Source: Artocarpus heterophyllus
Lineage: Eukaryota > Streptophyta > Magnoliopsida > Rosales > Moraceae
Assembly: GCA_025403435.1 (NCBI GenBank)
Contig: CM046351.1
Span: 27,989,730-28,053,729 of the forward strand
DNA: 64,000 bases
Reading direction: 5' to 3'
Below, in pieces: positions 22,386-59,822 of the stretch (the first letter of the stretch is position 1; each line of letters starts with the position of its first letter). The position numbers and the translations under genes are program-made. The notes beneath the pieces were generated by a model. The model saw only the letters and a list, made by a program, of their open reading frames with translations, ran no database searches and was not told the origin of the DNA.

Positions 22386-23459
22386 GTAAAATTGATGTAA
22401 AATTGACCATTAACGTTATTTGTTTCAACAAAAAAAAAAATTATATTTTACATTTCACTTGGGTTATCAAAAACATAAATGACATTATGCTATAAGAAAA
22501 ACAATTACACGCATGTAAATAGAGACAAACATGACAAGCATGAAAAAGAATTTGAGGTTACAAAATAAGTGTGGTCGGTTCCCTAGTTTTAAATATCTAA
22601 GACCATTAACCAAATAAAAATAAATAATATTTCAGACTGATCAAACCAACGCAATTAAGAATAAATTGATTTGGCTTTTTGGTTGGTTTTCGCAGTTTAA
22701 CTATTATCTTGAACACTAATAGCTAAGAGTAGTGAATTTTATATAGTAATATTCACTGGCTGCAGTTGAGATGTGTGTGTGTGTGTGTTTTTTTTTGTTT
22801 TTGTTTTTTTTTGTGTTTACTAGTGTATTTTTTGAGAATTTTTGATGTCGTTAGTCCGACTATTTTTTTTTCAACTGATTGAAAATTATTTTCTTAGGAT
22901 TTTTTAGTCCCTTCCTGTAAAATTAACGGTGAAGTTTTACATTAATAATACATAGAGCAAAAATGTTTTCTTCTTAAAAAGAGACATTTTATTAAAACCT
23001 GGGTACCAAACTATCATTTCTTGAAAATTTCAGAGATTGATAACCCTAAAAAAATATTTTTTCTAAAGGGAACATTATATTAGGGAAAATTGCAAAAAAT
23101 TCCTTCTATTGTGAGTACTTAGTATCACGAAAACCATTTTACTCTTTGGAAGGAAAAAAAAAAAATTACGTTGGAAATTTCGTAATTGTTTTGAATTCCT
23201 TCCTTGCAATAAAATTCTTTGTCAAAATTGGGGCAGCACTCCTGGTGATAATAAATAAATTAATTAATTAATGTGAGCTTAATTTTCCAGCACTATAATT
23301 TGCATCTTGCTTCATAATTTGTACATTTTCACAACAATTAAATTACCTTTCTCATGGGTATAATTATTCTAAATTTTTCTTCTTTTTTTTTTTTTTTGTT
23401 TTCCCTTTCGTCTTTTATAATCCTAAAAGATGTTTATCTTATTACAGTCTTGTGAATCA
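22386..23459. other. Intergenic and 5' flank of the F-box gene
   Basis: AT-rich, with a short (GT)n at about 22770-22788 and poly-T runs. An acceptor-like ATTACAG at 23441-23447 lies 12 bases before the F-box start codon, suggesting a 5'UTR intron. Nothing else is supported. Confidence 0.4.
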
Positions 23460-24056
23460 ATGGAGACAAGGTCGAAGATTGTGGTAACAAGAAGAGGAGA
23501 TAGATTCAGCAGTCTTCCAGACTGTCTTACTCATTACATTTTCTCCTTTCTTAATGTAGAAGACCTTTCTCGACTGATGCTTGTTTCCAAAAAGTTGAGA
23601 CACCTATGCTTCTTGACCCCATTCTTGACTTTAGACTACACAACACATCGGCTCGATGAAGCAAAAGGAGCTCGGATGATGAACTGCATTGACCGGATTT
23701 TGTTTCTTCAAAAAGGGATGATACTCAACGCTTGTACATCTGTTGGTATCTGTCGGGGAATTAGGCGTCTCCTAATTTCAAGGATCACAAGAACGAATAA
23801 TTGCAGAAAAGAAGAAAAGTGAGACACTAAATTTTTATACAGGTTTGTCCAAATTTGAGACTACGTCCTGTTTCTCCGCTATAGATTTCACTACAATGAA
23901 GGAGATTACAAATTACAAGAGAAATTTCTCACACTCTTAAACAATGTTTCTCAAATTTCTTTACTACCTAGCACCCTGTGGGAATTTTTCTCTCAAGGAT
24001 GGAGCTCTCACAAAATTTGCCTCACAACAATAATGCCACTATCTCTCTGTCACACA

Positions 24057-31429: not shown

Positions 31430-32167
31430 GTGGCCGGTTCTCCCATAATTTCAACACTCCACATTCGTACCGTTCCTCGACTTACTTCTCTCATTCCTCG
31501 ACTTGCTTTTCCTGCCATTATCCCTGTTGGAATGTCTCTCAAGTTTCTTGCCTCTATTATCAACATTAAGGGCCGAGTTCGACGTATAGGCTTCACCTGA
31601 ATCCTTCCTGCGAACTTCTTCCGCCAGAATAGAGTTTCTAACATCAACAAACTTTAGTTTTTCATTCCCAATCGAATCGGTAATGGCCACCCTCATGAGT
31701 TCCCAACTATTCGGTAACGAGGCTAAGAGGATTAAGGCATTGATCTCATCATCAAATTTAATCTCTAACAAGACCAATTGGTTCAGGACGGTGTTGAAAT
31801 TGTTCAGATGCTCTACCACCGAGGCACCTTCAGACATTTTTAAATTAAAGAGCTTCTTCATGAGATGTACCTTGTTATTGGCTGAGGGCTTCTCATACAT
31901 CTCTTACAGAGCCTTCATTATCCCTGCTGTAGTATTTTTCTTCGCAACGTTGTGGGCCACGTTCTTTGACAAGGTCAAACGGATTACACCCAGCACCTGT
32001 CTATCAAAGAGATTTCACTCCTCATCCTTCATGCCTTCAGGCTTATTACCCAAGAGCAAGTGTAGTTTCCTGCTGTAAAGGTAGTCTTCCACTTGCATCC
32101 TTCAATAAGAAAAATCCGAACCATCAAATTTGGTGATACCGGCTGCCAAACCTTCTTCTCCCGTCAT
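31430..32167 (-). pseudogene. Copia A gag (decayed)
   Basis: Starts MTGEEGLAAGITKFDGSDF; a TGA replaces the Trp of the usual SYWR motif near 32107. It continues with EMYEKPSANNKVHLMKKLFN, a UBN2/gag-type stretch (HLNNFNTVLNQL), and a basic Arg/Ser/Asn-rich tail leading to the zinc-knuckle region. Several frame breaks mean no full polyprotein can be made. Confidence 0.85.
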
Positions 32168-34632: not shown

Positions 34633-36012
34633 AGCCTCTTTCTCTGTAAGCACCCTTTGCAATTAAACCTCCCATTATTTCTTCGTAGTAACAATTATGA
34701 TTACATGACGATAATTTCATGCCTGACTCTATCATAAGGGTTGCAGTTTCAAAAATTAATCACGAAGAAATAAATACTTTGGCTGTGTTTCTTCTGGGAT
34801 ATTGATTTTCCATAATCCTTATGAAGTTGAAGTTGGCGACAATCAGGCTCTTAGAGAAGGAAAGACGAATCATAGATCGGAAGATAATCCTTTATGCGTT
34901 TTGGTACCAAATTTTTGATTTTATCAAGTCAAGACGGAGAAGACTAATTAGACTTTTGAGTTAGTATTTATTTCCAGTTGAACTCTTGGAGGAGTTTCAT
35001 CCAGTGACAAGAACTCTTTGGTCTTGTCTGTTTTTTATGGTTTTTGTGTTTTAATTCCTTTTCGTGGATATTTTTAATTTGGTTGAAACAGTATTTTGGA
35101 GACATACACAGGAATAATAGACATGCTATCTAAGGTTGTTTGGTCTTTTTTTTTATGTTTATTTATTTTTTTGCTTGGAAGGTTGTTCGGTTTCTTTTCT
35201 CTTTTTAAATTTTTGTACGCGCCTCTTTGCTCTGAAGGCTAGAGAAGTAATAATTTAGGGAGAAATCTGCGATAAGAACTCCTGGTGCACAATACCCCTT
35301 TGGTAAAGTTGGTTTAAACTAGTGTTGGAAATCTTTTGGAGACTTGGTTCGTTTGGTTTATTGATTTGAAATTGTTTTATTTTTTTTTAGCTTCAAGTAT
35401 GTAATTTTAAAAATGTGTTCAAAATGTTAAAATCAAGTTGGGGGTGTTTCCAAATTTAAGGCTTTTTTAAAACCAAAGGTTTAAACCAAAATTTACTTTT
35501 CTTTTGTAATCGTTGGTTCATAAGAGTTCAAACCAGTTAAACCCTCATCTAAATGGGCCTGAGTTTAACCATCTTGTTTTCAAGTGGCTTGAACCAAAAG
35601 TTAAACCACACTTTTCAAATCTATTACTTCAAATCATAAAAGTTCAAACCATCACGTTTTAAACTAACAAACCAATTCGACCCTTACACTCCATTTGGTA
35701 CAAGTTATGCAGAGTAGGAAGGATGGAGAAAGTTTAAGAGATGAAGAACATGAAGCATAGAAAAGATTATAGTAATTTTTTTATGTTGTTTGATAAGAGA
35801 AAGTGATAATTGAAAAACTTGATAATAGTTATTCATCTTATTACTATATTGACATTATACTAATTGTTAAATAATTTATTTTCAAAAAAAATTCTTTTTA
35901 ATTTAAATTTAAGTAGAATAGTTGGATCCTTCTATTAATGTAAGGATCCAAATTTGTAAGATGAGATATGAAGAGACTCTCTCTCTCCATATCTCATCTC
36001 CCTCTTATATTC
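34633..36012. other. Intergenic, no gene seen
   Basis: AT-rich. A segment at about 35300-35690 contains repeated GTTTGGTTT/GGTTTGAA and TTCAAACC motifs in both directions and may be an old MITE. The 5-bp TATTC at 36008-36012 is the left target duplication of the next element. Confidence 0.45.
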
Positions 36013-37986
36013 TGTGACACCCGTTATTCTCCTAACGGGTATTGAGGTAATTAAATTAATTTTTAATGTATAAAAAAAAATTGCTTCATTTAAATTTATT
36101 TTATAATATTTATTTTTATCTATTTTTAAGTTTTTTAAAATTCTCCTATATTTATTTAGTATGATTACTAAAAAGCCTTAGAACTTCTAATAAATCTCAA
36201 AAATGTCATATTGGCATTATGTGTGTTAAAGTCTTTAGATGAGACATAAGGATATCTTTTCCAACTACTCTTGACCCTCATTTTCTTTATTTCCTCCGTG
36301 ACATGCTTCAACATGTCTCCTCTATAATTGTTTCTATCACTTCTCTTCAAAGACTTCATCTTTTCTTCCTTTCTCTTCCACGGTTCCCACACTCTTCTTC
36401 TCATTTCTTTGCTGAAGCAAAATACTTAGAGAACTTCTTCAAGGCAGCCATAAAAATCAGCCACCATCACCTCCATTTGAGCAAGAATTTCAGTCATACC
36501 GAAGTAAAGGAACCTGTTTTGAAGCCATTTCAAGCTTCCAACTAACCATAATCCGAGGTTAGAATCTTATGAACAAATTTAGTCTTTCATTTATAAATTT
36601 TCTTTTATACTAAAGGATTATTCAAATTTGCGTTCTTAAACCTAAGTATATGTTTGTTGCTATTTTGGAGCATATGTATGAAGTCTAAGTGTATATGCCC
36701 TAGACAGAAAATTTATATTGTTAAACTTTGTAATACCTCTATGGGCAGTGGTTATTTCTTGAAATTCTAAGATTAAATTAAAATAAATTTTATGAATGTA
36801 GTTGTATGTTGTGCTTTAGTTTTAATTGTCCTTATGCACGCCTTAGGATCAAGGGAGTATGGAGCTAACGTTAACTGATTCCATGATTAAAAGATTGTTG
36901 ATAAGCTTGAAAGGTAGGGATTCTATTACTCATCTTTTGTGAGGTTTTTATAGAATTAAAATTGATTGTTTTGCTGCAATATATATATATCTATGTTGAA
37001 CTGATATTATATGTGTATCACATATGAAACTATGACATGGACTCGTCTTGTATTGTACGGCGAGGAACATAATGAATTGACACATGTTATAATTGAGAAG
37101 CATGGTTAGGAAAACTGACTATATTAATAATGATTTAATATAGAGAAATGGTGAGACATGAAGAGGGCGACGGTTACGTCCTTGGGCATGAATACCCTAA
37201 AAGGTAAAATAGGGGGAAGGCGATGACGCTTCCTTGGGTTGAAAGTCCCAGAACACACTGTACAGGAATCGACTTGGTGAGGACTCGGGGCTTGATGTCC
37301 CCTCACCGGAACACCCTTGGAATGTTTATAGGGTGATCAAGTGCGCCCATTTGGGTTTCGATGAGTTGAGTGATACTCAATTTAACATGGATACCTAGGA
37401 ACAATGATGATTGGTAATATTTGTATAAATGTGTAATTATGACACTTGGTAATGATTAACTACGGTATCCATAAGATGTGATCATAATAAACCTCATAAT
37501 CTGGAATATGATGTGACTTACTAACCATGCAGGTTTTAATGTGGTAATGATAAAAACCTAAATGTGAGTAATGGCTTTCTCTACTGAGCATAGTGTTGCT
37601 CATTCCCTTATGTTTATATCTTTTCAGGACTCACTAAGTGTGAGGTGGCTACGAGAAATATAGTTGAGGAAGTGATGTAGCTATATTACATTGGGACTGC
37701 TTCAATTGTTGAGAATGTTCTTCATGATAATGTAAGCATCAATTGTTACTTTCTGTGACTGTATTACAATGTGTTGAGGGTTAAAATGATGATGACAACA
37801 GTTTATATTATTAAATTTAAGGTGCTACATTAAAACTGTGGTTTATTTGTCGTTTATATTTTTATTTTTGAGTTGAGAGTTTTCATTTAAGTCCCGGGTA
37901 AATTTTAATCTTTAAGGTTTTACTTTTATTATTTATTTTTATTTTATCTCATTAAAAACTGTTAACCCCCATATAGGGGCGTTACA
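36013..37986 (+). repeat. 5' LTR of LOG element copy 1 (1974 bp)
   Basis: U3 has two parts: 36060-36845 is found only in this copy's LTRs, while 36847-37986 is shared with copy 2. A TATA-like AATATATATATATC at 36978-36991 probably sets transcription start in the shared part. Confidence 0.9.
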
Positions 37987-37993
37987 GAATTTT

Positions 37994-38006
37994 TGGTATC
38001 AGAGCC
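37994..38006 (+). other. Primer-binding site, LOG element copy 1
   Basis: TGGTATCAGAGCC, complementary to initiator tRNA-Met, 7 bases after the 5' LTR. Confidence 0.85.
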
Positions 38007-39444
38007 TAGGTTCGGTTAACCTAGGGAGTGTAGCACCACTTTAAAAAAATATATTTTTGAGATGGTTTTGAAGCTGAATTTTTATTGTCATCATCAAAAT
38101 GAACCTTCACATTGATTTATACAGTCTAGAAGGATGTAACATGGAAAGGCCATAGAATGAAAATATCAATAGTTATATGAGTACAATAATTATATAGAAG
38201 GAAAGTATTAATAGTTATAAGGGAATGATAATTATATGAAATGAGTTTATAAGTAGAATGCTTATGAGAGATTCGTATAATATTAGGATCTATAAGCATA
38301 TTTAATTCGTATAAACGATGAGAAATTCGTGTAGATACGAGGATTTAAGAGCCTTTTGTCTCGTGAAAAACAATGAGAAATATAAGGCTTGATTTATTGA
38401 TTTTAAAGTTTGACATAGATATGCCAAATTTTTCGTAATTGATTCAAACCTAAGTAATGATTATGTGTGGATTCGATGGAACACATAAGTGTCAATATCT
38501 TTTCTTAAAAGTTCTATTTATTTGAGGAATATGATATAAGTTGGGAATCATGGTATTGAATCTTGAGAGAGATAAATGTTAGACTTTTGGTCTGTTGAGA
38601 CTGTGTAAAGTCTAGAATGCATGAATCTCAAAATTGGAATATTTTGTTACGTACATTGTATTTAAGTGTATCAGTGAATCTTTTGGTTACCCAAGATTTT
38701 GTTATATGAGGAAATTCGATATTGTATAAGTAGAATTGTGGAGATTGTAGATGTTCCTAAGTAGTAACATCTAGTGTCTTTGTTCATTGATATGGTCTAC
38801 GTTGAAAGACGTAAATCGTATTGATTTCAAGGTTAGTCACATTCTAAACCCTTGGTAGTAATGATGATGAATCCATTGATAGATGTTGAGTATTAGGAAT
38901 AACATATGGGTGTATGTATTGTTCAATAAGGTTTTGATTAAAACAAAATTATTTGAGTTGCTGGATCATTCAAGAAGATCCTTGTTGTCGTTAAATTAGA
39001 TTTGTTGTTTATAGTTAACTTTATCTATAGTGGGCTTTGAATTGGGTTTAAGATTTATACAAATTGGTTTTCAATTTTATGTTTGTTATTTAACTCGTTC
39101 TAAATGTGTTAAGGCCCGAAACAACCTGACCATTTTCAACTTAGAACATTTGGGCCTAGTTCAAATCTTAAATCAGTTTGATTCACACTGTCTCTCCCAC
39201 GTGGTCTCTATACGTGTCATATACAGTGGTTTAATTATTGTTTACATATACGTTTACTGTACATAAGAGCTTATTTCTCCGAGTTCACTTTTTCTCTCTT
39301 AATTTGTTATTTTCTCTCTAAATCGCAAATCCTCTTCTTTCTCATTAAAAATTCTTCTTTTCCTCCAAAAGAAGAAGGAATTCTAGGATTCTGCAATTTA
39401 CTATCTTAATTTTTCCTTTCTATTTACTCTTCTTTCATCTCATC
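38007..39444 (+). other. Leader region of LOG element copy 1, no ORF seen
   Basis: About 1.4 kb of AT-rich sequence between the primer-binding site and the first ORF, with repeated short motifs (GAGAAATTCGTATA-like near 38270-38330). It is conserved in copy 2 (49584-51021). No coding domain is visible; packaging or dimerisation signals would be expected here. Confidence 0.5.
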
Positions 39445-39966
39445 ATGGACCCAAAGTACCAACACCTGAGAAAGTATTTCCCATCACTCTCCCAAAAGAT
39501 TCTCAGAAAGAAATACAAGGCTAGAATTACTCGGTTGTGGATTCTTATGCGTTTTGGTATCCCTTGTGATGTGAGAATGTTAATAGAGGGGAAAATCCGT
39601 CCGAGTGACTTTAGTCAAGATGTCGGTTTACCAGGAACAGGTACCAGTCGTAGTGCAATGAAAAGAAGAGCTCGTGCCATCGTGGTCGCTTGTAACAAAT
39701 GTGGAAGACAAAATTGTAACGGTAAATGTACCTCACCTAGTTATATGTCTACGAATAGAGAGGATAAAATAAGGTTTTGTAGGAATGGACTTTCAAAGGA
39801 GAACTTGGATAGTATCCATCCTCCTCTTCACGGTCACCCTAGTGGATATGTTCAAGGAGCTATTTTTAAACTCTGGCCTAAATTTTATACAGAAAGACAA
39901 CGCCTCAGGAATATGGTATTTCTAGATCCTGTTTGCCAAGCCATAAGAAAATTGGATGGGGAATAA
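39445..39966 (+). CDS. ORF1 of LOG element copy 1, unknown Cys-containing basic protein (173 aa)
   Basis: I do not recognise this protein. It starts MDPKYQHLRKYFPSLSQKIL and is basic throughout the first 80 residues. KRRAR at 73-77 is followed at once by a Cys cluster C83-x2-C86-x4-C91-x3-C95 (CNKCGRQNCNGKC). The C-terminal third is rich in aromatic, Arg and Leu residues. It is not a normal gag: no HHCC, protease or UBN2-type sequence accompanies it, and the zinc-knuckle His is absent. Basic patch plus Cys cluster suggests nucleic-acid binding. A similar layout is seen in cysteine-rich nucleic-acid-binding proteins of some plant RNA viruses, but I cannot show homology. The frame is conserved in copy 2 with about five substitutions, though that copy lost its ATG. 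Confidence 0.7.
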   Translation: MDPKYQHLRKYFPSLSQKILRKKYKARITRLWILMRFGIPCDVRMLIEGKIRPSDFSQDVGLPGTGTSRSAMKRRARAIVVACNKCGRQNCNGKCTSPSYMSTNREDKIRFCRNGLSKENLDSIHPPLHGHPSGYVQGAIFKLWPKFYTERQRLRNMVFLDPVCQAIRKLDGE

Positions 39967-40570
39967 GTCATCGCTCTATAAAGGTTATTTAGTCTTTACT
40001 TATTTGAAGCAGTTTTAGCTGATGTTCAACAGTTTGTGTTTTTCTTTTACTCAGAATATTTGCTTTTGTGTTTGAAATAATTGTGATTATTAGATTGATA
40101 CAGTAAGTGTTAATATCTTATTTAATTTATGATTTTCTTAAATATATATATAATAAAATATATTATCTTATCAGACACGTTACATACGGTACAGTAATAT
40201 GTTTTAATTTTGAAAAGCTTATCCAGATATTTCAAGATTTGTGTCTCAAATTTCAAAAGTTCTACAGTATTTGTCGTTTATATTAAATTTCTAGACTTGG
40301 TGTATATTTGTCAAAAAGTCTACAGTTGTGTCATGAGGGTCTTCTGTCGAATTGTTCTCAATTGTCAAAAGTTATACAATTAGAGTCTAATCTTTTTGAA
40401 AAAGTGAATCAGATTTTCTGTAAACTATCAATCACCTTATCTTACTTTCTTATCCGCACAAGATTTTGTTTAAATCTTTGGATTACCTTTTCATTACCTA
40501 CTCGTCTATCTCTTTAGCCCTTTTTGTATATTTCTCATCTTTAAAATCTCATGTAGAACCCGAAGTCTAA

Positions 40571-41212
40571 GTGGAGCAGACATTAAGCAACCACTTCTAT
40601 AAACCAAATATGTCTACCTCCCAGTCCACGAAGAAAATAAAGAATGTCTGTGTCTTTTGTGGTTCCAGCTTTGGAAAAGATAAAGCTTATTTAGAAGCTG
40701 CAAATCACTTAGGGCAAGTCCTAGCACGCAAAAAGATTAACATAATCTATGGGGGTGGTAGTATAAAAATGATGGTAAATATGGCACTAGCAGCTAGGTC
40801 TAGCGACGCTACTGATGTAAGAATTTGGCCTCATATTCCAGTTGAAGGAAACCTTTGTAAGGAAGCCATAGGTAAGGGAGAAGGAGTCAGGAGTATCCCT
40901 AAAAATTTTAAAGACATAATCTATAATTCTGATGCTTTTATAGCATTACCTGGTGGTCTAGGTACTCTTGAGGAAATATTTATAGTTGCTTGTGGGCAAT
41001 TGTTGGGCTTTTATTCCAAACCTTTGGGTCTGCTGAACGTAAAGGGTTTTTATGACGGTCTTTTGAAATTTCTAGATTACGCTGTGGAAGAAAACATCAC
41101 TACAGAATCGGAGAGACAAATCTTTGTTACTGCTTCAACAGCTGAGGAATTGATAGATAAAATGCAAATCATACATCCAGAATCCGACACTGCAACATCC
41201 AAGCTTGAATGA
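40571..41212 (+). CDS. LOG-like (cytokinin riboside monophosphate phosphoribohydrolase-like) ORF in copy 1 (213 aa)
   Basis: Single uninterrupted ORF; a second in-frame Met (MSTSQS) at 40610 matches the usual LOG start better. Family features: KNVCVFCGSS, INIIYGGGSI, DAFIALPGGLGTLEEIF, KPLGLLNV and FVTASTAEELIDKM. LOG enzymes release active cytokinin bases from nucleotides. PGGxGTxxE is intact. Aligned without gaps from GGGS to DAF, the catalytic Arg of the family's MHxRK motif is replaced by Asn (IPKNFKD), and GGGSxGLMG is altered to GGGSIKMMV, so ordinary activity is doubtful. Plant LOG genes have several introns; the intronless state implies capture through RNA. It ends at TGA after SKLE, where copy 2 reads on. 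The region between ORF1 and this ORF has no other supported frame. Confidence 0.88.
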   Translation: MEQTLSNHFYKPNMSTSQSTKKIKNVCVFCGSSFGKDKAYLEAANHLGQVLARKKINIIYGGGSIKMMVNMALAARSSDATDVRIWPHIPVEGNLCKEAIGKGEGVRSIPKNFKDIIYNSDAFIALPGGLGTLEEIFIVACGQLLGFYSKPLGLLNVKGFYDGLLKFLDYAVEENITTESERQIFVTASTAEELIDKMQIIHPESDTATSKLE

Positions 41213-42189
41213 GAAAGGGAAAGCCGGGAGCGGCCAATTGATTTGAATCTCCATCTGTAATCTTTTTGTTTTATCTTTGGCATGTAGGCATGTGTGTCCG
41301 TATTTCGTGTGTTACGAATAACCGTTTGCCTTGTATTCTGTGTTTCTTGTGGTACGTCGTTGTTCAATCTTTTAGATTCATTGAGCCTAATGCCGGGATG
41401 GCTGGATACGGAGTACTTGATGCTCTCGAAACGCATCCTTCTTAAGGTCCGATCTTTTGTTTATCGATGTTTTTGTATCCTCTAAGCATGCATGATATGG
41501 ATAGCTGGTATACGGAGTGCCTTGTACTCTCGAAACGTATCCGTATTATGTTTGTAATGTGTAATATTCTGTTAATATTATGTGGAAGTACCAGAGTCAG
41601 TTATGGGGATATTCCATATGAAATATGAGTATATTATTTGGATTGAATGTTTGTGTCATGAGGATAGCTGTTTAATGAAAAATATGTCGGGTATGTTTGC
41701 AACCAGAGATTCCGTTTAATATCTCTATGAGTAAGTTTAATGTATAGTTTTGAATAAAAGTGTTTGTGATATATGTTTTATGATTATGTTCTAGTTTATT
41801 AGTTGAGGTATGAAATCAAATATATTTGACTTTTCTTTACTCAAAAAGGAAAAGGAACCTAAAGATGAAGTATATAAAATTTCTCTGGCAATCTCCTTAA
41901 ATGTGATTGTAAATCACAGTCCATGGACAATGAAGGACTGGAATCATGATATGGTCAATATGTATGCCTGATCAGATTCTTAGACTATTATACGGTGTTA
42001 TAAGTTGAAACTTGTCAAAAATACTCTCATTGAGGGATTTAGGAGTAAGATTTATTATGCAAGTAAATGAGTGGAGATACGATAACTTAAATTTGGAGGA
42101 CAAACAACATTAACGGTTTAGACTCAGAATTGGAATCATAGTGGAATCATAATTTTTACTAGTATTGCTAGAATTGAAATTTCGAGGAC

Positions 42190-42214
42190 GAAATTTCTTT
42201 AAGGGGGGTAGAGC
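42190..42214 (+). other. Polypurine tract, LOG element copy 1
   Basis: GGACGAAATTTC precedes TTTAAGGGGGGTAGAGC directly before the 3' LTR. It is the plus-strand primer site, in the form usual for chromoviruses. Confidence 0.85.
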
Positions 42215-44189
42215 TGTGACACCCGTTATTCTCCTAACGGGTATTGAGGTAATTAAATTAATTTTTAATGTATAAAAAAAAAATTGCTTCATTTAAATTT
42301 ATTTTATAATATTTATTTTTATCTATTTTTAAGTTTTTTAAAATTCTCCTATATTTATTTAGTATGATTACTAAAAAGCCTTAGAACTTCTAATAAATCT
42401 CAAAAATGTCATATTGGCATTATGTGTGTTAAAGTCTTTAGATGAGACATAAGGATATCTTTTCCAACTACTCTTGACCCTCATTTTCTTTATTTCCTCC
42501 GTGACATGCTTCAACATGTCTCCTCTATAATTGTTTCTATCACTTCTCTTCAAAGACTTCATCTTTTCTTCCTTTCTCTTCCACGGTTCCCACACTCTTC
42601 TTCTCATTTCTTTGCTGAAGCAAAATACTTAGAGAACTTCTTCAAGGCAGCCATAAAAATCAGCCACCATCACCTCCATTTGAGCAAGAATTTCAGTCAT
42701 ACCGAAGTAAAGGAACCTGTTTTGAAGCCATTTCAAGCTTCCAACTAACCATAATCCGAGGTTAGAATCTTATGAACAAATTTAGTCTTTCATTTATAAA
42801 TTTTCTTTTATACTAAAGGATTATTCAAATTTGCGTTCTTAAACCTAAGTATATGTTTGTTGCTATTTTGGAGCATATGTATGAAGTCTAAGTGTATATG
42901 CCCTAGACAGAAAATTTATATTGTTAAACTTTGTAATACCTCTATGGGCAGTGGTTATTTCTTGAAATTCTAAGATTAAATTAAAATAAATTTTATGAAT
43001 GTAGTTGTATGTTGTGCTTTAGTTTTAATTGTCCTTATGCACGCCTTAGGATCAAGGGAGTATGGAGCTAACGTTAACTGATTCCATGATTAAAAGATTG
43101 TTGATAAGCTTGAAAGGTAGGGATTCTATTACTCATCTTTTGTGAGGTTTTTATAGAATTAAAATTGATTGTTTTGCTGCAATATATATATATCTATGTT
43201 GAACTGATATTATATGTGTATCACATATGAAACTATGACATGGACTCGTCTTGTATTGTACGGCGAGGAACATAATGAATTGACACATGTTATAATTGAG
43301 AAGCATGGTTAGGAAAACTGACTATATTAATAATGATTTAATATAGAGAAATGGTGAGACATGAAGAGGGCGACGGTTACGTCCTTGGGCATGAATACCC
43401 TAAAAGGTAAAATAGGGGGAAGGCGATGACGCTTCCTTGGGTTGAAAGTCCCAGAACACACTGTACAGGAATCGACTTGGTGAGGACTCGGGGCTTGATG
43501 TCCCCTCACCGGAACACCCTTGGAATGTTTATAGGGTGATCAAGTGCGCCCATTTGGGTTTCGATGAGTTGAGTGATACTCAATTTAACATGGATACCTA
43601 GGAACAATGATGATTGGTAATATTTGTATAAATGTGTAATTATGACACTTGGTAATGATTAACTACGGTATCCATAAGATGTGATCATAATAAACCTCAT
43701 AATCTGGAATATGATGTGACTTACTAACCATGCAGGTTTTAATGTGGTAATGATAAAAACCTAAATGTGAGTAATGGCTTTCTCTACTGAGCATAGTGTT
43801 GCTCATTCCCTTATGTTTATATCTTTTCAGGACTCACTAAGTGTGAGGTGGCTACGAGAAATATAGTTGAGGAAGTGATGTAGCTATATTACATTGGGAC
43901 TGCTTCAATTGTTGAGAATGTTCTTCATGATAATGTAAGCATCAATTGTTACTTTCTGTGACTGTATTACAATGTGTTGAGGGTTAAAATGATGATGACA
44001 ACAGTTTATATTATTAAATTTAAGGTGCTACATTAAAACTGTGGTTTATTTGTCGTTTATATTTTTATTTTTGAGTTGAGAGTTTTCATTTAAGTCCCGG
44101 GCAAATTTTAATCTTTAAGGTTTTACTTTTATTATTTATTTTTATTTTATCTCATTAAAAACTGTTAACCCCCATATAGGGGCGTTACA
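42215..44189 (+). repeat. 3' LTR of LOG element copy 1 (1975 bp)
   Basis: Near-identical to 36013-37986. By eye I see one extra A in an A tract and GGGC where the 5' LTR has GGGT near the end. Confidence 0.9.
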
Positions 44190-44433
44190 TATTCCTTCCA
44201 ACTAAACAAAGGATTCTTTATCTCCCCCACCACTATCCCTTCACCCCTTTCCCTCCCTTCATCTCTCTCTCCCATAAAAAATAGTATTAGTCTCTAAAAC
44301 ACCAAATCTTTCATGAAGCAAGCTTTCCCGATGTCAAGCTAGGGGGTATAGATGTCATTTTCTTACACATTATGACCTTAGAGAAAAGTATATGAATGGC
44401 AATTGAATTTTTTGAATTAGCTCATGGCGCTTT
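44190..44433. other. 244-bp spacer between the two LOG elements
   Basis: Original genomic DNA between the insertions, with TATTC (44190-44194) and GCTTT (44429-44433) target duplications at its ends. Pyrimidine-rich; no gene. Confidence 0.85.
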
Positions 44434-46831
44434 TGTAACGCCCCTATATGGGGGTTAACAGTTTTTAATGAGATAAAATAAAAATAAATAATAAAAGTAA
44501 AACCTTAAAAATAAAATTTGCCCGGGACTTAAATGAAAACTCTCAACTCAAAAATAAAAATATAAACGATAAATAAACCACAGTTTTAATGTAGCACCTT
44601 AAATTTAATAATATAAACTGTTGTCATCATCATTTTAACCCTCAACACATTATAATACAGTCACAGAAGTAACAATTGATGCTTACATTATCATGAAGAA
44701 CATTCTCAACGATTGAAGCAGTCCCAATGTAATATAGTTACATCACTTCCTCAACTATATTTCTCGTAGCCACCTCACACTTAGTGAGTCCTGAAAAGAT
44801 ATAAACATAAGGGTATGAGCAACACTATGCTCAGTAGAGAAAGCCATTACTCACCTTTAGGTTTTTATCATTACCACATTAAAATCTGCATGGTTAGTAA
44901 GTCACATCATATTCCAGATTATGAGGTTTATTATGATCACATCTTATGGATACCGTAGTTAATCATTACCAAGTGTCATAATTACACATTTATACAAATA
45001 TTATCAATCATCATTGTTCCTAGGTATCCATGTTAAATTGAGTATCACTCAACTCATCGAAACCCAAATGGGCGCACTTGATCACCCTATAAACATTCCA
45101 AGGGTGTTCCGGTGAGGGGACATCAAGCCCCGAGTCCTCACCAAATCAATTCCTGTACAGTGTGTTCTGGGACTTTCAACCCAAGGAAGCGTCATCGCCT
45201 TCCCCCTATTTTACCTTTTAGGGTATTCATGCCCAAGGACGTAACCGTCGCCCTCTTCATGTCTCACAATTTCTCTATATTGAATCATTATCAATAGAGT
45301 TAGTTTTCCTAACCATGCTTCTCAATTTATAACATGTGTCAATTCATTATGTTCCTCGCCGTACAATACAAGACGAGTCCATGTCATAGTTTCATATGTG
45401 ATACACATATAATATCAGTTCAACATAGATATATATATATTGCAGCAAAACAATCAATTTTAATTCTATAAAAACCTCACAAAAGATGAGTAATAGAATC
45501 CCTACCTTTCAAGCTTATCAACAGTCTCTTAATCCTGGAATCAATTAACGTTAGCTCCATACTCCCTTGATCTTGAACTCCAAGCAAAACAGATCTAGTT
45601 GTATCTCGCTGTATCTACGAAGCATCCTCTGTAGTGCTCCTCGAGCGACTATGAATGGCTAGGAATGCTTCCTGGAGATCATACATTCTTGAAAACGTCA
45701 TTCTGGACTCCGATACTGCTGTTTGAATCGCCTCGATTCGCGTGCAGTCGGTACCGGATGATTTTCATCGGAGTGGAATTTGCTCAAACGGAGGTCACCA
45801 TTGCATCCAGAGCATCGAAACGAGTTAGGAGGCGGTCTCGGATCTTCGATCGGAGGTCCGGATCACAAAATTCCAATTTAGCCTTTGACTGGCCGTTGAC
45901 CAGCGTTGACCACCGTTGACCGGCGTTGACCGACTTTGACCGTCGTTGACCGGTGTCAATCGGGGTCCGTTGGCAGCTGGGCTCGGGCCTACCCCCCCTA
46001 AATCGACCCTTCTGAGTCCAATGGCGGGGTCAATTTCACCCAATTCTGTCTCTAACATAGCGGGTCGTGAAGTACAACGTCGGTAGAAATGGATGAGCTC
46101 CGATCTTGATTCTCCGACGATGGAAACCTGAAATTGGCTGAGGGCTTTTGCTACCCATCCTCCTATGAGCATTTCCCCTCATCCAATTTGAAGAAACGTG
46201 GCTGGGAAGAGCCAAAACGGAGACTCCCGCGGCGGTTGACGGCGGCGTTGGCCGTTCTCCGGCGAAACCGGCTCCTTCCGTGCAATTGATCGAGGGGTTT
46301 TACTCCCCTTGATCCTCTGAACTCATTGGGAGGGGTGGTGTCAGTCACCTCCTCCGGCAAGGCGGAGTTCCACCATGGGGGCGGCGGTGCACGGCGGCAA
46401 TAGGCGGGCGGAGCAATCCGGCGGTTGTTGAGCTGCCACCAAGGGTGGGTTTTGTTCCTCTCATCACGGTGGTCGTGTAGGAACAAGAATCACGTCGATC
46501 GGACGTCGGACGGCGAAGATATCTCGTCGGAAAGAAATGGGTTTTGCCGCCACTTTGGGCGGCGCGTGTGGTCTCCTCCGACGGCGTTTTGGGCGGCGCG
46601 GCAGCTCGTTGGACTCAGCTCGTCGAGAGCTTTCCATTGGTGCGGGAGGTGTCGAAAACGGATGCCGAAATCTCAGACGATCTTTGAGAAGAGAGAGAGA
46701 GAATTTTTAGAGAGAGAAAGTAGAGAGAGAGAGAGTTTCGGATTATGAGAGATTTTCTGATTTTTTTTATATATATACTAGGTAATTAATCTAATTACCT
46801 TAATACCCTTAGGAGAATAACGGGTGTCACA
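44434..46831 (-). repeat. 3' LTR of LOG element copy 2 (2398 bp)
   Basis: Partner of 51042-53437, with the same GC-rich distal U3 at 45573-46780. The open frames within it on both strands (for example 45825-46486) are compositional and overlap each other. Confidence 0.9.
45885..45951. promoter_or_regulatory. W-box array in the copy 2 3' LTR U3
   Basis: Seven TTGAC cores on the plus strand (one TTGACT, six TTGACC), spaced about 10-12 bp. TTGAC(C/T) is the WRKY-binding W-box. The array is absent from copy 1. Confidence 0.65.
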
Positions 46832-47776
46832 GCTCTACCCCCCTTAAAGAAATTTCGTCCTCGAAATTTCAATTCTAGTAATACTAGTAAAAACTATGAT
46901 TCCAATTCCGAGTCTAAACCGTTAATGTTGTTTATCTTCCAAATTTAAGTCATCGTATCTCCACTTATTTACTTGCATAATAAATCTTACTCCTAAATCC
47001 CTCAATGAGAGTGTTTCTGACAAGTTTCAATTTGTAACACCGTATAATAGTCTAAGAATCTGATCAGGCATACATATTGACCATACCATGATTCCAGTCC
47101 TTCATTGTCCATGGACTGTGATTTACAATCACATTTAAGGAGATTGCCAGAGAAATTTTATATACTTCATCTTTAGGTTCCTTTTCCTTTTTGAGTAAGG
47201 AAAAGTCAAATATATTTGATTTCATACCTCAACTAATAAACTAAAACATAATCATAAAACATATATCACAAACACTTATATTCAAAACCATACATTAAAC
47301 TTATTCATAGAGATATTAAACGGAATCTCAGAGTTGCAAACATACCCGACATATTTTTTCATTAAACAGCTATCCTCATGACACAAACATTCAACCCAAA
47401 TAATATACTCATATTTCATATGGAATATCCCCATAACTGACTCTGGTACTTCCACATAATATTAACAGAATATTACACATTACAAACATAATACGGATAC
47501 GTTTCGAGAGTACAAGGCACTCCGTATACCAGCTATCCATATCATGCATGCTTAGAGGATACAAAAACATCGATAAACAAAAGATCGGACCTTAAGAAGG
47601 ATGCGTTTCGAGAGCATCAAGTACTCCGTATCCAGCCATCCCGGCATTAGGCTCAATGAATCTAAAAGATTGAACAACAACGTACCACAAGAAACACAGA
47701 ATACAAGGCAAACGGTTATTCGTAACACACGAAATACAGACACACATGCCTATATGCCAAAGACAAAACAAAAAGA

Positions 47777-48466
47777 TTACAGATGGAGATTCAAATCAAT
47801 TGGCCGCTCCCGGCTTTCCCTTTCCCATTCAAGCTTGGATGTTGCAGTGTCGGATTCTGGATGTATGATTTGCATTTTATCTATCAATTCCTCAGCTGTT
47901 GAAGCAGTAACAAAGATTTGTCTCTCCGATTCTGTAGTGATGTTTTCTTCCACAGCGTAATCTAGAAATTTCAAAAGACCGTCATAAAAACCATTTACAT
48001 TCAACAGTCCCAAAGGTTTGGAATAAAAGCCCAACAATTGCCCACAAGCAACTATAAATATTTCCTCAAGAGTACCTAGACCACCAGGTAATGCTATAAA
48101 AGCATCAGAATTATAGATTATGTCTTTAAAATTTTTAGGGATACTCCTGACTCCTTCTCCCTTACCTATGGCTTCCTTACAAAGGTTTCCTTCAACTGGA
48201 ATATGAGGCCAAATTCTTACATCAGTAGCGTCGCTAGACCTAGCTGCTAGTACCATATTTACCATCATTTTTATACTACCACCCCCATAGATTATGTTAA
48301 TCTTTTTGCGTGCTAGGACTTGCCCTAAGTGATTTGCAGCTTCTAAATAAGCTTTATCTTTTCCAAGGCTGGAACCACAAAAGACACAGACATTCTTTAT
48401 TTTCTTCGTGGACTGGGAGGTAGACATATTTGGTTTATAGAAGTGGTTGCTTAATGTCTGCTCCAC
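47777..48466 (-). CDS. LOG-like ORF in copy 2 (229 aa, extended C-terminus)
   Basis: Same protein as copy 1's LOG-like ORF with few changes (SLGK for SFGK, NMVLAA for NMALAA, NVNGF for NVKGF). PGGLGTLEE is intact and the catalytic-Arg position is again Asn. Where copy 1 has TGA this copy has TGG, adding 16 residues ending ERPIDLNLHL. Native LOG proteins also continue past SKL with a Trp-Glu (CWEIE-type) tail, so this longer form is probably ancestral. The last residues fit the LxLxL/DLNxxL form of an EAR repression motif; that may be chance. Single exon, minus strand, in the same position relative to its LTRs as in copy 1. Confidence 0.88.
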   Translation of the reverse strand: MEQTLSNHFYKPNMSTSQSTKKIKNVCVFCGSSLGKDKAYLEAANHLGQVLARKKINIIYGGGSIKMMVNMVLAARSSDATDVRIWPHIPVEGNLCKEAIGKGEGVRSIPKNFKDIIYNSDAFIALPGGLGTLEEIFIVACGQLLGFYSKPLGLLNVNGFYDGLLKFLDYAVEENITTESERQIFVTASTAEELIDKMQIIHPESDTATSKLEWERESRERPIDLNLHL

Positions 48467-49061
48467 TTAGACTTCGGGTTCTATATGAGATTTTAAAGAT
48501 GAGAAATATACAAAAAGGGCTAAAGAGATAGACGAGTAGGTAATGAAAAGGTAATCCAAAGATTTAAACAAAATCTTGTGCGGATAAGAAAGTAAGATAA
48601 GGTGATTGATAGTTTACAGAAAATCTGATTCACTTTTTGAAAAAGATTAGACTCTAATTGTATAACTTTTGACAATTGAGAACAATTCGATAGAAGACCC
48701 TCATGACACAACTGTAGACTTTTTGACAAATATACACCAAGTCTAGAAATTTAATATAAACTGTAGAACTTTTGAAATTTGAGACACAAATCTTGAAATA
48801 TCTGGATAAGCTTTTCAAAATTCAAACATATTACTGTACCGTATGTAACGTGTCTGATAAGATAATATATTTTATTATATATATATTTAAGAAAATCATA
48901 AATTAAATAAGATATTAACACTTACTGTATCAATCTAATAATCACAATTATTTCAAACACAAAAGCAAATATTCTGAGTAAAAGAAAAACACAAACTGTT
49001 GAACATCAGCTAAAACTGCTTCAAATAAGCAAAGACTAAATAACCTTTATAGAGCGATGAC

Positions 49062-49583
49062 TTATTCCCCATCCAGTTTTCTTATGGCTTGACAAACAGG
49101 ATCTAGAAATACCATATTCCTGAGGCGTTGTCTTTCTGTATAAAATTTAGGCCAGAGTTTAAAAATAACTCCTTGAACATATCCACTAGGGTGACCGTGA
49201 AGAGGAGGATGGATGCTATCCAAGTTCTCCTTTGAAAGTCCATCCCTACAAAACCTTATTTTATCCTCTCTATTCGTAGACATATAACCAGGTGAAGTAC
49301 ATTTACCGTTACAATTTTGTCTTCCACATTTGTTACAAGTGACCACGATGGCACGAGCTCTTCTTTTCATTGCACTACGACTGGTACCTGTTCCTGGTAA
49401 ACCGACATCTTGACTAAAGTCACTCGGACGGATTTTCCCCTCTATTAACATTCTCACATCACAAGGGATACCAAAACGCATAAGAATCCACAACCGAGTG
49501 ATTCTAGTCTTGTATTTCTTTCTGAGAATCTTTTGGGAGAGTGATGGGAAATACTTTCTCAGGTGTTGGTACTTTGGGTCTAT
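49062..49583 (-). pseudogene. ORF1 of LOG element copy 2, start codon lost
   Basis: Counterpart of 39445-39966. The frame is open throughout and retains KRRAR and the CNKCGRQNCNGKC cluster, but the initiating ATG is ATA (49581-49583). The next in-frame Met (MRFGIP, 49481) would drop the 34-residue basic N-terminus. Substitutions relative to copy 1 include ARIT to TRIT, ACNKC to TCNKC, SPSY to SPGY, CRNG to CRDG and GAIF to GVIF. Confidence 0.75.
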
Positions 49584-51041
49584 GATGAGATGAAAGAAGA
49601 GTAAATAGAAAGGAAAAATTAAGATAGTAAATTGCAGAATCCTAGAATTCCTTCTTCTTTTAGAGGAAAAGAAGAATTTTTAATGAAAAAGAAGAGGATT
49701 TGCGATTTAAAGAGAAAATAACAAATTAAGAGAGAAAAAGTGAACTCGGAGAAATAAGCTCCTATGCACAGTAAACGTATTTGTAAACAATGATTAAACC
49801 ACTGTATATGACACGTATAGAAACCACGTGGGAGAGACAGTGTGAATCAAACTGATTTAAGATTTGAACTAGGCCCAAATGTTCTTAGTTGAAAATGGTC
49901 AGGTTGTTTAGGGCCTTAACACATTTAGAACGAGTTAAATAACAAACATAAAATTGTAAACCAATTCGTATGAATCTTAAACCCAATTCAAAGCCCACTA
50001 TAGATAAAGTTAACTATAAACAACAAATCTAATTTAACGACAACAAGGATCTTCCTGAATGATCCAGCAACTCAAATAATTTTGTTTTAATCAAAACCTT
50101 ATTGAACAATGCATACACCCATATGTTATTCATAATACTTAACATCTATCAATGGATTCATCATCATTGCTACCAAGGGTTTAGAATGCGACTAACCTTG
50201 AAATCAATACGATTTACGTCTTTCAACGTAGACCATATCAATGAACAAAGACACTAGATGTTACTACTTAGGAACATCTACAATCTCCACAATTCTACTT
50301 ATACAATATCGAATTTCCTCATATAACAAAATCTTGGGTAACCAAAAGATTCACTGATACACTTAAATACAATGTACGTAACGAAATATTCCAATTTTGA
50401 GATTCATGCATTCTAGACTTTACACAGTCTCAACAGACCAAAAGTCTAACATTTATCTCTCTCAAGATTCAATACCATGATTCCCAACTTATATCATATT
50501 CCTCAAATAAATAGAACTTTTAAGAAAAGTTATTGACACTTATGTGCTCCATCGAATCCACACATAATCATTACTTAGGTTTGAATCAATTACGAAAAAT
50601 TTGGCATATCTATGTCAAACTTTAAAATCAATAAATCAAGCCTTATATTTCTTATTGTTTTTCACGAGACAAAAGGCTATTAAATCCTCGTATCTACACG
50701 AATTTCTCATCGTTTATACGAATTAGATATGCTTATAGATCCAAATATTATACGAATCTCTCATAAGCAATCTACTTATAAACTCATTCCATATAATTAT
50801 CATTCCCTTATAACTATTAATACTTTCCTTCTATATAATTATTGTACTCATATAACTATTGATATTTTCATTCTATGGCCTTTCCATGTTACATCCTTCT
50901 AGACTGTATAAATCAATGTGAAGGTTCATTTTGATGATGACAATGAAAATTCAGCTTCAAAACCATCTCAAAAATATATTTTTTTAAAGTGGTGCTACAC
51001 TCCCTAGGTTAACCGAACCTAGGCTCTGATACCAAAAATTC

Positions 51042-53437
51042 TGTAACGCCCCTATATGGGGGTTAACAGTTTTTAATGAGATAAAATAAAAATAAATAAT
51101 AAAAGTAAAACCTTAAAAATAAAATTTGCCCGAGACTTAAATGAAAACTCTCAACTCAAAAATAAAAATATAAACGATAAATAAACCACAGTTTTAATGT
51201 AGCACCTTAAATTTAATAATATAAACTGTTGTCATCATCATTTTAACCCTCAACACATTATAATACAGTCACAGAAGTAACAATTGATGCTTACATTATC
51301 ATGAAGAACATTCTCAACGATTGAAGCAGTCCCAATGTAATATAGTTACATCACTTCCTCAACTATATTTCTCGTAGCCACCTCACACTTAGTGAGTCCT
51401 GAAAAGATATAAACATAAGGGTATAAGCAACACTATGCTCAGTAGAGAAAGCCATTACTCACCTTTAGGTTTTTATCATTACCACATTAAAATCTGCATG
51501 GTTAGTAAGTCACATCATATTCCAGATTATGAGGTTTATTATGATCACATCTTATGGATACCGTAGTTAATCATTACCAAGTGTCATAATTACACATTTA
51601 TACAAATATTATCAATCATCATTGTTTCTAGGTATCCATGTTAAATTGAGTATCACTCAACTCATCGAAACCCAAATGGGCGCACTTGATCACCCTATAA
51701 ACATTCCAAGGGTGTTCCGGTGAGGGGACATCAAGCCCCGAGTCCTCACCAAATCAATTCCTGTACAGTGTGTTCTGGGACTTTCAACCCAAGGAAGCGT
51801 CATCGCCTTCCCCCTATTTTACCTTTTAGGGTATTCATGCCCAAGGACGTAACCGTCGCCCTCTTTATGTCTCACAATTTCTCTATATTGAATCATTATC
51901 AATAGAGTTAGTTTTCCTAACCATGCTTCTCAATTTATAACATGTGTCAATTCATTATGTTCCTCGCCGTACAATACAAGACGAGTCCATGTCATAGTTT
52001 CATATGTGATACACATATAATATCAGTTCAACATAGATATATATATATTGCAGCAAAACAATCAATTTTAATTCTATAAAAACCTCACAAAAGATGAGTA
52101 ATAGAATCCCTACCTTTCAAGCTTATCAACAGTCTCTTAATCCTGTAATCAATTAACGTTAGCTCCATACTCCCTTGATCTTGAACTCCAAGCAAAACAG
52201 ATCCAGTTGTATCTCGCTGTATCTACGAAGCATCCTCTGTAGTGCTCCTCGAGCGACTATGAATGGCTAGGAATGCTTCCTGGAGATCATACATTCTTGA
52301 AAACGTCATTCTGGACTCCGATACTGCTGTTTGAATCGCCTCGATTCGCGTGCAGTCGGTACCGGATGATTTTCATCGGAGTGGAATTTGCTCAAACGGA
52401 GGTCACCATTGCATCCAGAGCATCGAAACGAGTCAGGAGGCGGTCTCGGATCTTCGATCGGAGGTCCGGATCACAAAATTCCAATTTAGCCTTTGACTGG
52501 CCGTTGACCAGCGTTGACCACCGTTGACCGGCGTTGACCGACTTTGACCGTCGTTGACCGGCGTCAATCGGGGTCCGTTGGCAGCTGGGCTCGGGCCTAC
52601 CCCCCCTAAATCGACCCTTCTGAGTCCAATGGCGGGGTCAATTTCACCCAATTCTGCCTCTAACATAGCGGGTCGTGAAGTACAACATCGGTAGAAATGG
52701 ATGAGCTCCGATCTTGATTCTCCGACGATGGAAACCTGAAATTGGCTGAGGGCTTTTGCTACCCATCCTCCTATGAGCATTTCCCCTCATCCAATTTGAA
52801 GAAACGTGGCTGGGAAGAGCCAAAACGGAGACTCCCGCGGCGGTTGACGGCGGCGTTGGCCGTTCTCCGGCGAAACCGGCTCCTTCCGTGCAATTGATCG
52901 AGGGGTTTTACTCCCCTTGATCCTCTGAACTCATTGGGAGGGGTGGTGTCAGTCACCTCCTCCGGCAAGGCGGAGTTCCACCATGGGGGCGGCGGTGCAC
53001 GGCGGCAATAGGCGGGCGGAGCAATCCGGCGGTTGTTGAGCTGCCACCAAGGGTGGGTTTTGTTCCTCTCATCACGGTGGTCGTGTAGGAACAAGAATCA
53101 CGTCGATCGGACGTCGGTCGGCGAAGATATCTCGTCGGAAAGAAATGGGTTTTGCCGCCACTTTGGGCGGCGCGTGTGGTCTCCTCCGGCGGCGTTTTGG
53201 GCGGCGCGGCAGCTCGTTGGACTCAGCTCGTCGAGAGCTTTCCATTGGTGCGGGAGGTGTCGAAAACGGATGCCGAAATCTCAGACGATCTTTGAGGAGA
53301 GAGAGAGAGAATTTTTAGAGAGAGAAAGTAGAGAGAGAGAGTTTCGAATTATGAGAGATTTTCTGATTTTTTTTATATATATACTAGGTAATTAATCTAA
53401 TTACCTTAATACCCTTAGGAGAATGACGGGTGTCACA
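51042..53437 (-). repeat. 5' LTR of LOG element copy 2 (2396 bp)
   Basis: The first ~50 bp (TGTGACACCCGTTATTC-type, here CGTCATTC) and the proximal ~1.14 kb (51042-52180) match copy 1. The intervening ~1.2 kb (about 52181-53385) is GC-rich and unrelated to copy 1's U3. It carries GA-rich and TATATA tracts near 53298-53390. Confidence 0.9.
52493..52559. promoter_or_regulatory. W-box array in the copy 2 5' LTR U3
   Basis: Same seven-core array as in the other LTR. Here it lies upstream of the shared TATA-like region that would drive the copy 2 transcript (minus strand). Confidence 0.65.
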
Positions 53438-53442
53438 GCTTT

Positions 53443-58193: not shown

Positions 58194-59822
58194 CTATGAT
58201 ATTTGTAATTCGGTGTTATTTGGGTCATTTATGTAAGACGTGACAGGACACCTAGTAAAAATCAGTGTGGTTCGATAAAATTCTCATTAAATAAGTCAAG
58301 ACCTTAATTTCTTACTTCAGATTTCGTGACGGTCTTTAAACCATCGTAAAATGCTTTTATGACTGCTTTCATGGCTACTTTTAACGATATGGATTAATGG
58401 TCTTATTATACTATTGACTCCAATGTTAACGCTAGATTGAAAATTTCAAGAGGGGATATTTTTGTTCCTGTTTCAAGTTTATGCTTTCTCCTACGCAAAT
58501 ACGGTTATAAAATGTTCGAATACATATCTTGCCCTAGTAAATATTATCAAAACACTTTTTTTGAGAATTAAATTAGTAGCTTGAAATTTTGCTACTTAAG
58601 AAAAGAAGAAATAAGAATATATAAAAAAGATGCAAATATTATAAATTGTGAAACATACCTGAGGAATGAAACAGTGTATATGAGCCATATACTTGCAATC
58701 TTTGCAGGAGTAAGTACGAAAGCGTTGATTCATTTTTTCTTCGCACACATCGCAATAATATTTATCTGAATCATCTTGGATCACTATATGATCACAAAGA
58801 GTTAAGGGGTGGATGTGACACTTATTTTTGATGGAAGATGGCAATGGACCACATAGAAAATGAAGGCTGAAATCACAATCTATGCAGCGGAATAGAAAAG
58901 GTAGAGTACGTTTAATTTCATTAGGGACAAAATCGACACAACTACCATAAGACTTTTGACAAGCATTGCACTGGATATTACAAGATGCTTTCTCCACCAA
59001 AAGAAGAAAATGACCATGACTTGGATATTTTACCGCCGTCAGAAAAACACATTCTGTACACAAGTTAATGTTACACCCATCTTCATGACAACCAAAAATA
59101 AGCCTGCAATTTGGTTTGCAACAGGATTTACAAGATCGAGGCTTACTGACCTGAAGCAGAAGTGGGTGACGTGAGTGACATGTGTGTTGTATTTCTCTTG
59201 GCAACTCTGCACACGATTTGTGGAGAAAATTCTCACAGGATTCGGAAGTGCAAGAGTAGGCTGGAGCAGACCATTGTGATTGACACGCAAAGCACTCATT
59301 AGCTTTATCTGCTCCCCTTTTCGGATAATGGTCCTGCTCCACGAGAGGCATCGGATGCCCATGGCAGACATATTGAATGACACCATGATCATCTTGGTCA
59401 ACTTGTTGAGTTGTTGTGCTTATGGTGGGCAGTGGGATAATGGCACATTCTCTATGCATGTAAAAATTAGAGCATTGATTGCACGCATACCGATAGCTTT
59501 TTTCATCTTCATCTTGGAAGGTCTTGTCACAGTAATCGCAGCAACTCATCATGTGGTTTCTTGATGATGATCCCTTTCGTAGTGTGAGTTGGTGGAGAGG
59601 ATGCAACGAGTGATTCATTTGTTGGGGCAACTCTGCACATCTTTCGTGCAGAACATATGAGCAGCCAGATTCGCTGCATCTGTAATACAAAGAATCCACT
59701 AACCACTGATTACACACGCCGCACCTGAATATCCTATGTAGGCATGCAATTACTGGCAACTGGAAAAAGCGCAAATGATGATTGTGACTGAAATGTCGAA
59801 TTCCCTGGCCTTTTATCTTCAT
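54989..59822 (-). CDS. DC1-domain (Cys/His-rich) protein, two exons
   Basis: Exon 1 (58659-59822, 388 codons) ends ...CFIPQ at CTCAG|GTATGT. Exon 2 (54989-55954) starts after TATCAG. Both are phase 0, giving 709 aa. Exon 1 encodes about six DC1 units: HxxH...CxxC...C-x4-5-C...H-x2-C, for example CGVCNQW...CSESGCSYVLHERCAELP and CDVCEEK...CKDCKYMAHIHC. DC1 modules are C1-like zinc domains found in large plant families, some linked to defence or stress; targets are mostly unknown. Exon 2 begins near KMWALGDNRWDFSRLW and contains VVNVEGYMVPSSLAPILTTL, TKVEDI and a C-terminal coiled coil (LDHGIADLEAKLERYKGLRE), a C-terminal region I associate with plant DC1 proteins. Separate genes remain possible, because the 2.7-kb intron is long. 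Confidence 0.82.
55955..58658 (-). other. Large intron of the DC1 gene
   Basis: 2704 bp. It includes a GC-rich, Pro/Arg-coding-like patch (about 56440-57130, open on both strands, so compositional), long A and T runs, and a (TA)n at about 58147-58191. The GC-rich patch may be an old insertion; no element ends were found. Confidence 0.55.
58147..58191. repeat. (TA)n microsatellite
   Basis: About 20 or more TA units inside the DC1 intron. Confidence 0.9.

Follow-up and report, generated by a model that had tools for sequence, protein, structure and literature searches.

In plant long terminal repeat (LTR) retrotransposons, additional open reading frames (aORFs) have been described 5' in Tekay elements and 3' in Athila elements (PMC7264820, PMC11728184), and maize Bs1 is known as a gene-transducing LTR element (PMC7264820). 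Here we describe two LTR retrotransposons of one family in a 64,000-nucleotide stretch of the Artocarpus heterophyllus genome (contig CM046351.1, positions 27,989,730 to 28,053,729; hereafter the window, whose own numbering is used throughout), the interiors of which encode a LOG-like protein and, upstream of it, a protein (ORF1) resembling the nucleic-acid-binding protein (NABP) of carlaviruses. From the sequences compared below we consider it likely that they belong to a young, high-copy, non-autonomous family that is moved in trans, probably by a chromovirus-type helper, and that carries the NABP-like and LOG-like genes as an accessory module with a function of its own. The anatomy of the family (LTRs, target site duplication (TSD), primer-binding site (PBS) and polypurine tract (PPT)), its recent amplification, the conservation of the gene pair, purifying selection on it and the loss of a catalytic LOG residue are each demonstrated by the data that follow.

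The aORF elements offer the nearest parallel, being high-copy plant Ty3/gypsy elements with conserved extra ORFs that are suspected of modulating silencing, and one NABP relative found here (locus L045, below) likewise lies 3' of an integrase; however, aORF elements are described as possessing gag-pol, whereas in the window family the two ORFs make up all of the coding content that we found, and the passages on aORFs in PMC7264820 and PMC11728184 describe none as NABP-like or LOG-like. As in the Bs1 type, host-type sequence is located inside an LTR element. Bs1-type elements are low-copy chimeras of fragments, whereas the window family possesses full-length ORFs and thousands of candidate places, with the pair kept across subfamilies. 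LARD and TR-GAG elements are also non-autonomous, with large interiors and movement in trans, but the interior of the window family codes for two selected proteins without gag, and so differs from the LARD type, whose large interior lacks coding capacity. In the open-access literature, judged by title or abstract opening, we found no paper connecting an LTR element with LOG or NABP. To our knowledge, most genes that retrotransposons capture are fragments or do not last long.

The two elements are complete and lie in opposite orientation, with 234 bp between them (44195-44428). Element 1 (forward strand) is bounded by the TSD TATTC at 36008..36012 and 44190..44194 as judged by flank comparison, and LTR alignment places its 5' LTR (TGTGACACCC...GGGGCGTTACA) at 36013..37986 and its 3' LTR at 42215..44189, the pair differing by 1 substitution in 1974 positions. 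Element 2 (reverse strand) has its 5' LTR at 51042..53437, followed by a TSD at 53438..53442, and its 3' LTR at 44434..46831, beyond which lies the second TSD copy (44429..44433; GCTTT on the forward strand); its LTRs differ by 15 substitutions in 2396 positions and are of a different subtype, with a 5' half diverged from that of element 1. The interiors (37987-42214, 4,228 bp, and 46832-51041, 4,210 bp) are 97.7% identical over 4230 columns, and each has a PBS at its start and the polypurine block AGGACGAAATTTCTTTAAGGGGGG at its end. The PBS of element 1, TGGTATCAGAGCC (37994..38006), is one that we take to be of the initiator-Met (iMet) type. The polypurine block occupies 42185..42208 in element 1 and, by pattern match, 46838..46861 (reverse strand) in element 2, and the near-identical 24-base pattern had 0 chance matches in 100 shuffles of the window. 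The complete LTRs, distinct TSDs, PBS and PPT that a first-pass annotation of this DNA had reported for both elements were thus all confirmed.

Only two ATG-started ORFs of at least 120 aa occur in each interior, the NABP-like and the LOG-like, and among the interior ORFs of this length no Pfam match at E≤1 was obtained for gag, protease, reverse transcriptase, RNase H or integrase. Element 1 encodes ORF1 of 173 aa (39445..39966), with a basic stretch and a Cys cluster and assigned from Pfam and its relatives, and a LOG-like protein of 200 aa (40610..41212), assigned by Pfam, alignment and structure, that keeps PGGLGTLEE and has lost MHxRK. In element 2 the ORF list and Pfam give a LOG-like ORF of 216 aa (47777..48427, reverse strand) and an NABP-like ORF of 139 aa that is open from an internal Met (49062..49481, reverse strand). 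The LOG frame of element 1 stops 16 codons before the 216-aa frame found in element 2 and most copies, and ORF1 of element 2 is without its usual start, so that each window element carries one damaged ORF.

Searching the genome (985,004,640 bases in 334 contigs) with the interior gave at least 35 scored places with 98-100% identity over the whole interior (4,145 first-look candidates), and ORF1 gave at least 150 scored places at 98-100% without stops (5,814 candidates); scored counts here and below are lower bounds, the remaining candidates being unscored. Twenty of the 35 interior copies were compared further, or 22 copies with both of those in the window. Both LTRs were complete in 18 copies, which are flanked by identical repeats of 5 bp in 17 cases and of 8 bp in one (L028), while the PPT was present in 22/22 copies and the PBS core in 20/22. 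LTR divergence among the 18 two-LTR copies ranged from 0 to 0.0063, with 0 substitutions in six of them. The 35 places are spread over many contigs and TSDs differ, indicating independent and dispersed insertions, and with two LTRs, TSD, PBS and PPT the family has all the features that define an LTR retrotransposon. Both ORFs were located in all 20 further copies, one of the two being broken in three, so that no copy examined lacked the LOG-like ORF altogether; the first-pass view that a LOG-like gene stands in place of gag-pol in a mobile LTR family, whose cargo moves with the element, is upheld. Its statement that the ORFs stay open holds for the 17 of 22 copies in which both are full length, and needs correction for the two window elements, each with one damaged ORF. 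Three LTR variants (about 1,970, 2,350-2,360 and 2,400 bp) are common to one interior (L013-L032 and the window), and this sharing suggests that members of the family have recombined or switched templates. Judging from these sequences, amplification of the family is recent and may be ongoing.

The two genes also occur together in more diverged form. With banana LOG1 as query, the contiguous LOG places that were scored numbered at least 150, with 44-51% identity (5,633 candidates), and in all 12 diverged LOG loci inspected an NABP gene lay upstream on the same strand, some of these ORFs being broken. The loci fall into an L038/L039 subfamily (protein identity to the window family of 63-64% for LOG and 73-74% for NABP) and an L033-type subfamily of ten loci (49-53% and 55-60%, respectively). 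The L033 and L038 types are alignable in the gene regions only, whereas the window and L038 types can also be aligned over some patches of leader and 3' noncoding sequence (73-81%). Ratios of nonsynonymous to synonymous divergence (dN/dS) between the three subfamilies were 0.29, 0.29 and 0.23 for LOG and 0.15, 0.12 and 0.12 for NABP, at synonymous divergences of about 0.8-2.7, those of NABP (1.1-2.7) being near saturation, which makes its ratios rough. Within the window family the corresponding pN/pS was 0.216 (bootstrap 0.098-0.506) for 22 copies and 0.145 (0.069-0.305) for 21. This comparison across copies, which the first-pass annotation had suggested, demonstrates purifying selection on both ORFs, with pair order and orientation kept across three subfamilies of one genome. 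Outside this genome, the longest contigs for a LOG relative (P0057) and for an NABP relative (P0150) are both of 8,723 bases, a hint only that the pair exists elsewhere. The L033-type subfamily also has a 76-codon stop-to-stop frame ahead of its NABP gene (L047, 483-710).

The LOG-like ORF is intronless and of 216 aa in most copies, and its homology to the LONELY GUY cytokinin riboside monophosphate phosphoribohydrolases is clear from Pfam, alignment and structure. It shares with these enzymes the fold and the PGGxGTxxE motif, with both Glu present, but differs from them in being intronless and mobile and in having lost MHxRK, which reads IPKNF in the window family. The catalytic Arg is thereby lost: Asn, Phe and Ile stand at the positions of CgLOG Arg99, Lys100 and Met96, whereas the Arg is kept in both other subfamilies of the genome and in poplar relatives. 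Alanine mutants of the adenosine monophosphate (AMP)-site and catalytic residues of CgLOG are, with the exception of S19A, almost inactive (PMC4979012). Since the catalytic Arg and adenine-site residues are replaced, ordinary cytokinin activation is doubtful, and of the hormone-metabolism gene announced by the first-pass annotation the LOG homology stands while the metabolic role is weakened. A quickly computed LOG tree with long branches and few canonical rows (55 rows, comprising 48 of 120 listed proteins and 7 loci) placed the three subfamilies in one clade (SH-like approximate likelihood ratio test (SH-aLRT) 100). This clade is nested in a set that has Populus, Xanthoceras, Reevesia and Diplodiscus as its named members, and it is separate from the four canonical rows, of which three are named monocots. 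Two Populus trichocarpa LOGL10 proteins (P0008, P0016) are among the multi-member LOGs nearest to that of the element. In a viral collection the LOG profile found 19 loci, with 25-62% identity over parts of the protein. Because the pair has diverged within the genome and both genes have relatives in several genera of rosids, a recent capture from a host LOG gene is unlikely.

ORF1, left unnamed in the first-pass annotation, resembles the carlavirus NABP by its sequence and is paired with the LOG-like gene as its upstream partner. A single-sequence search with ORF1 found 14 diverged relatives (42-60% identity), while its profile matched 856 proteins at E≤1. Among the 120 of these that were listed, the plant-named NABP relatives belong to the genera Populus, Xanthoceras, Acer, Hibiscus and Rhamnella, and their contigs measure 16-78 Mb. 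Two Pfam models were used, Viral_NABP and Carla_C4 (PF05515, PF01623). Of 15 aligned members, 13 matched Carla_C4 and 12 Viral_NABP at E≤0.1, and of nine relatives scanned singly seven exceeded the Viral_NABP cut-off of 23 bits (P0139 with 34.1 and P0150 with 33.8 bits) and eight exceeded one or both of the cut-offs, P0125 falling below both. The family has in common a basic stretch (KKRRAKR), a Cys cluster and an NREDKI region. The order of basic stretch and then Cys cluster is the same in the carlavirus NABP and cysteine-rich silencing suppressors, which are shorter; the element proteins, by comparison, are mostly of 173-186 aa, have conserved N- and C-terminal parts of their own and reside in plant genomes. 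Among prokaryote genome contigs one NABP relative (L045) was found in 117 pattern stretches. This 3.3-kb contig, filed in a Candidatus Nomurabacteria metagenome-assembled genome and probably plant contamination (features at 104-2347), contains an integrase ORF (rve 2.4e-16, Integrase_H2C2 1.4e-12) followed directly by the NABP ORF, so that NABP is also carried, as an additional 3' ORF, by an element that has an integrase, one that we take to be Ty3/gypsy and Athila-like. An Athila-type NABP (P0129) reached a best identity of 54% in the Artocarpus genome among 150 scored of 5,312 candidates, and the few matches recognised by place were copies of the window family or the L038 type.

As neither interior contains a pol ORF, the elements are not filed as Ty3/gypsy chromovirus (Tekay-type) members but only as probable users of such a helper. 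The Ty3/gypsy integrase-end domain SH3_Tf2-1 has at least 150 scored places in the genome (13,035 candidates) and 0 in 14 control genomes, and 15 of the 150 lie inside open frames of 1,548-1,578 aa, such that apparently intact helpers exist. The polypurine motif common to L034 and L045 is of a different type (judged by eye, 5 transitions over 25 bases), presumably Athila-like, and from such short motifs these same genes appear to occupy more than one kind of backbone. In L038 a stretch of 4,001 bases that stops some 80 bp short of NABP on its upstream side held no element-strand frame longer than 112 aa, and in L034, where about 1.36 kb precede NABP, the 1,061 bases compared with integrase gave no significant match.

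Several points weigh against the reading of a trans-moved family with a selected module. The 20 copies compared are the best matches to element 1 and hence biased to young and intact copies; they are also related, so that their pairs are not independent. No autonomous partner carrying matching LTRs was encountered, the 3' end of a single helper candidate having been read. Behind one long SH3_Tf2-1 frame, this candidate, lies a 33-bp PPT block that is a short match to that of the window family (91% identical; E 1.3e-6 in a comparison confined to the two elements), but the LTR start of this candidate differs from that of the window family, its C-terminal chromodomain-like stretch scores 13.9 of 25.1 bits (E 0.052), below the Pfam cut-off, and its designation as a chromovirus is in part our presumption. 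Inside the L033 type constraint is weaker (dN/dS of 0.40 and 0.37 for LOG and 0.58 and 0.30 for NABP, two pairs each), as is expected if many copies decay. This range of 0.30-0.58, the near-identical LTRs and the missing full-length ORF in 5 of 22 copies would all suit a passive cargo, captured once and amplified so recently that ORFs of no use to the element merely look conserved. We regard that as very unlikely, given that the ratios between subfamilies are 0.12-0.29 while synonymous divergence is about 0.8-2.7, that the pair recurs at all 12 of the diverged loci, and that several genera of rosids have NABP families.

An active, cytokinin-releasing LOG that the element uses for growth of its host cells appears unlikely as well, although somewhat less so: the homology and both Glu of PGGxGTxxE speak for it, as does the Arg of the two other subfamilies and the poplar relatives, but the window family itself has the Asn, Phe and Ile replacements at sites of the types whose alanine mutants, S19A excepted, leave CgLOG almost inactive (PMC4979012). 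As to the origin of the NABP likeness, it is quite possible, if not what we favour, that ORF1 belongs to a plant or retrotransposon zinc-binding family of similar (basic plus Cys) composition, or that viruses took NABP from elements: only about 30-90 middle residues match Pfam (best E-value 3.5e-8), window ORF1 itself scores 16.2 bits against the Viral_NABP cut-off of 23, and the profile confirmed 0 relatives among 54 pattern stretches from 2.9 million viral contigs. The predicted NABP structure is poor (predicted local distance difference test (pLDDT) 68.6, predicted template modelling score (pTM) 0.32), and its best BFVD match, a Helleborus mosaic virus protein named as an RNA silencing suppressor, falls short of significance (E 0.15). 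Shared ancestry with viruses is favoured by the agreement of two separate Pfam models, which hit the majority of the 15 members in the region of the basic stretch and Cys cluster, and by the naming of 3 of the 16 listed sub-threshold structure matches as RNA silencing suppressors, from Helleborus mosaic virus, Chrysanthemum virus B and Cowpea mild mottle virus, which we take to be carlaviruses. The virus-like first gene could also suggest a module inside an endogenous plant virus, but LTRs, TSDs, PBS, PPT and dispersed copies are present and each interior holds only two ORFs of at least 120 aa, making this extremely improbable; for the copies studied here the retrotransposon anatomy refutes it.

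Elsewhere in the window, outside both elements, are a Copia-type gag fragment (Retrotran_gag_2, 2.8e-20; 31451-31900, reverse strand), a 408-aa protein with C1_2 (DC1-type) domains (4.6e-28; 58596-59822, reverse strand), in keeping with a plant host, a Tim17/Tim22/Tim23 family protein (4.1e-17; 7503-7868, reverse strand) and a short ORF with an F-box domain (23430-23822, forward strand).

Returning to the trans-moved family that we favour, an element without any of the enzymes must borrow them, and its movement would probably be catalyzed in trans by those of a chromovirus-type (Ty3/gypsy) helper. The NABP-like protein most likely binds nucleic acid, perhaps the element RNA, and may blunt RNA silencing, as the naming of its carlavirus counterparts suggests. 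The LOG-like protein of the window family may no longer make free cytokinin while most likely still binding its nucleotide. LOG enzymes are dimers whose substrate site is built from residues of both chains (PMC4979012). With the active site shared in this manner, the LOG-like protein may alternatively form mixed dimers with host LOG. In either case this would shift the state of the host cell in favour of the element. It is possible, though less likely than not, that a virus-type silencing-suppressor-like protein and a catalytically altered LOG together form a two-gene cassette for counter-defence or host reprogramming, traded among rosid retrotransposon lineages (integrase-bearing Ty3/gypsy, Athila-like and chromovirus-like), which would let an element devoid of gag-pol reach thousands of copies.

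A full-length pair under selection across three diverged subfamilies makes virus-like counter-defence and hormone interference by plant retrotransposons testable. It also means that LOG-type genes annotated in tree genomes, with LOGL10 of Populus trichocarpa as an example, may be transposon cargo.

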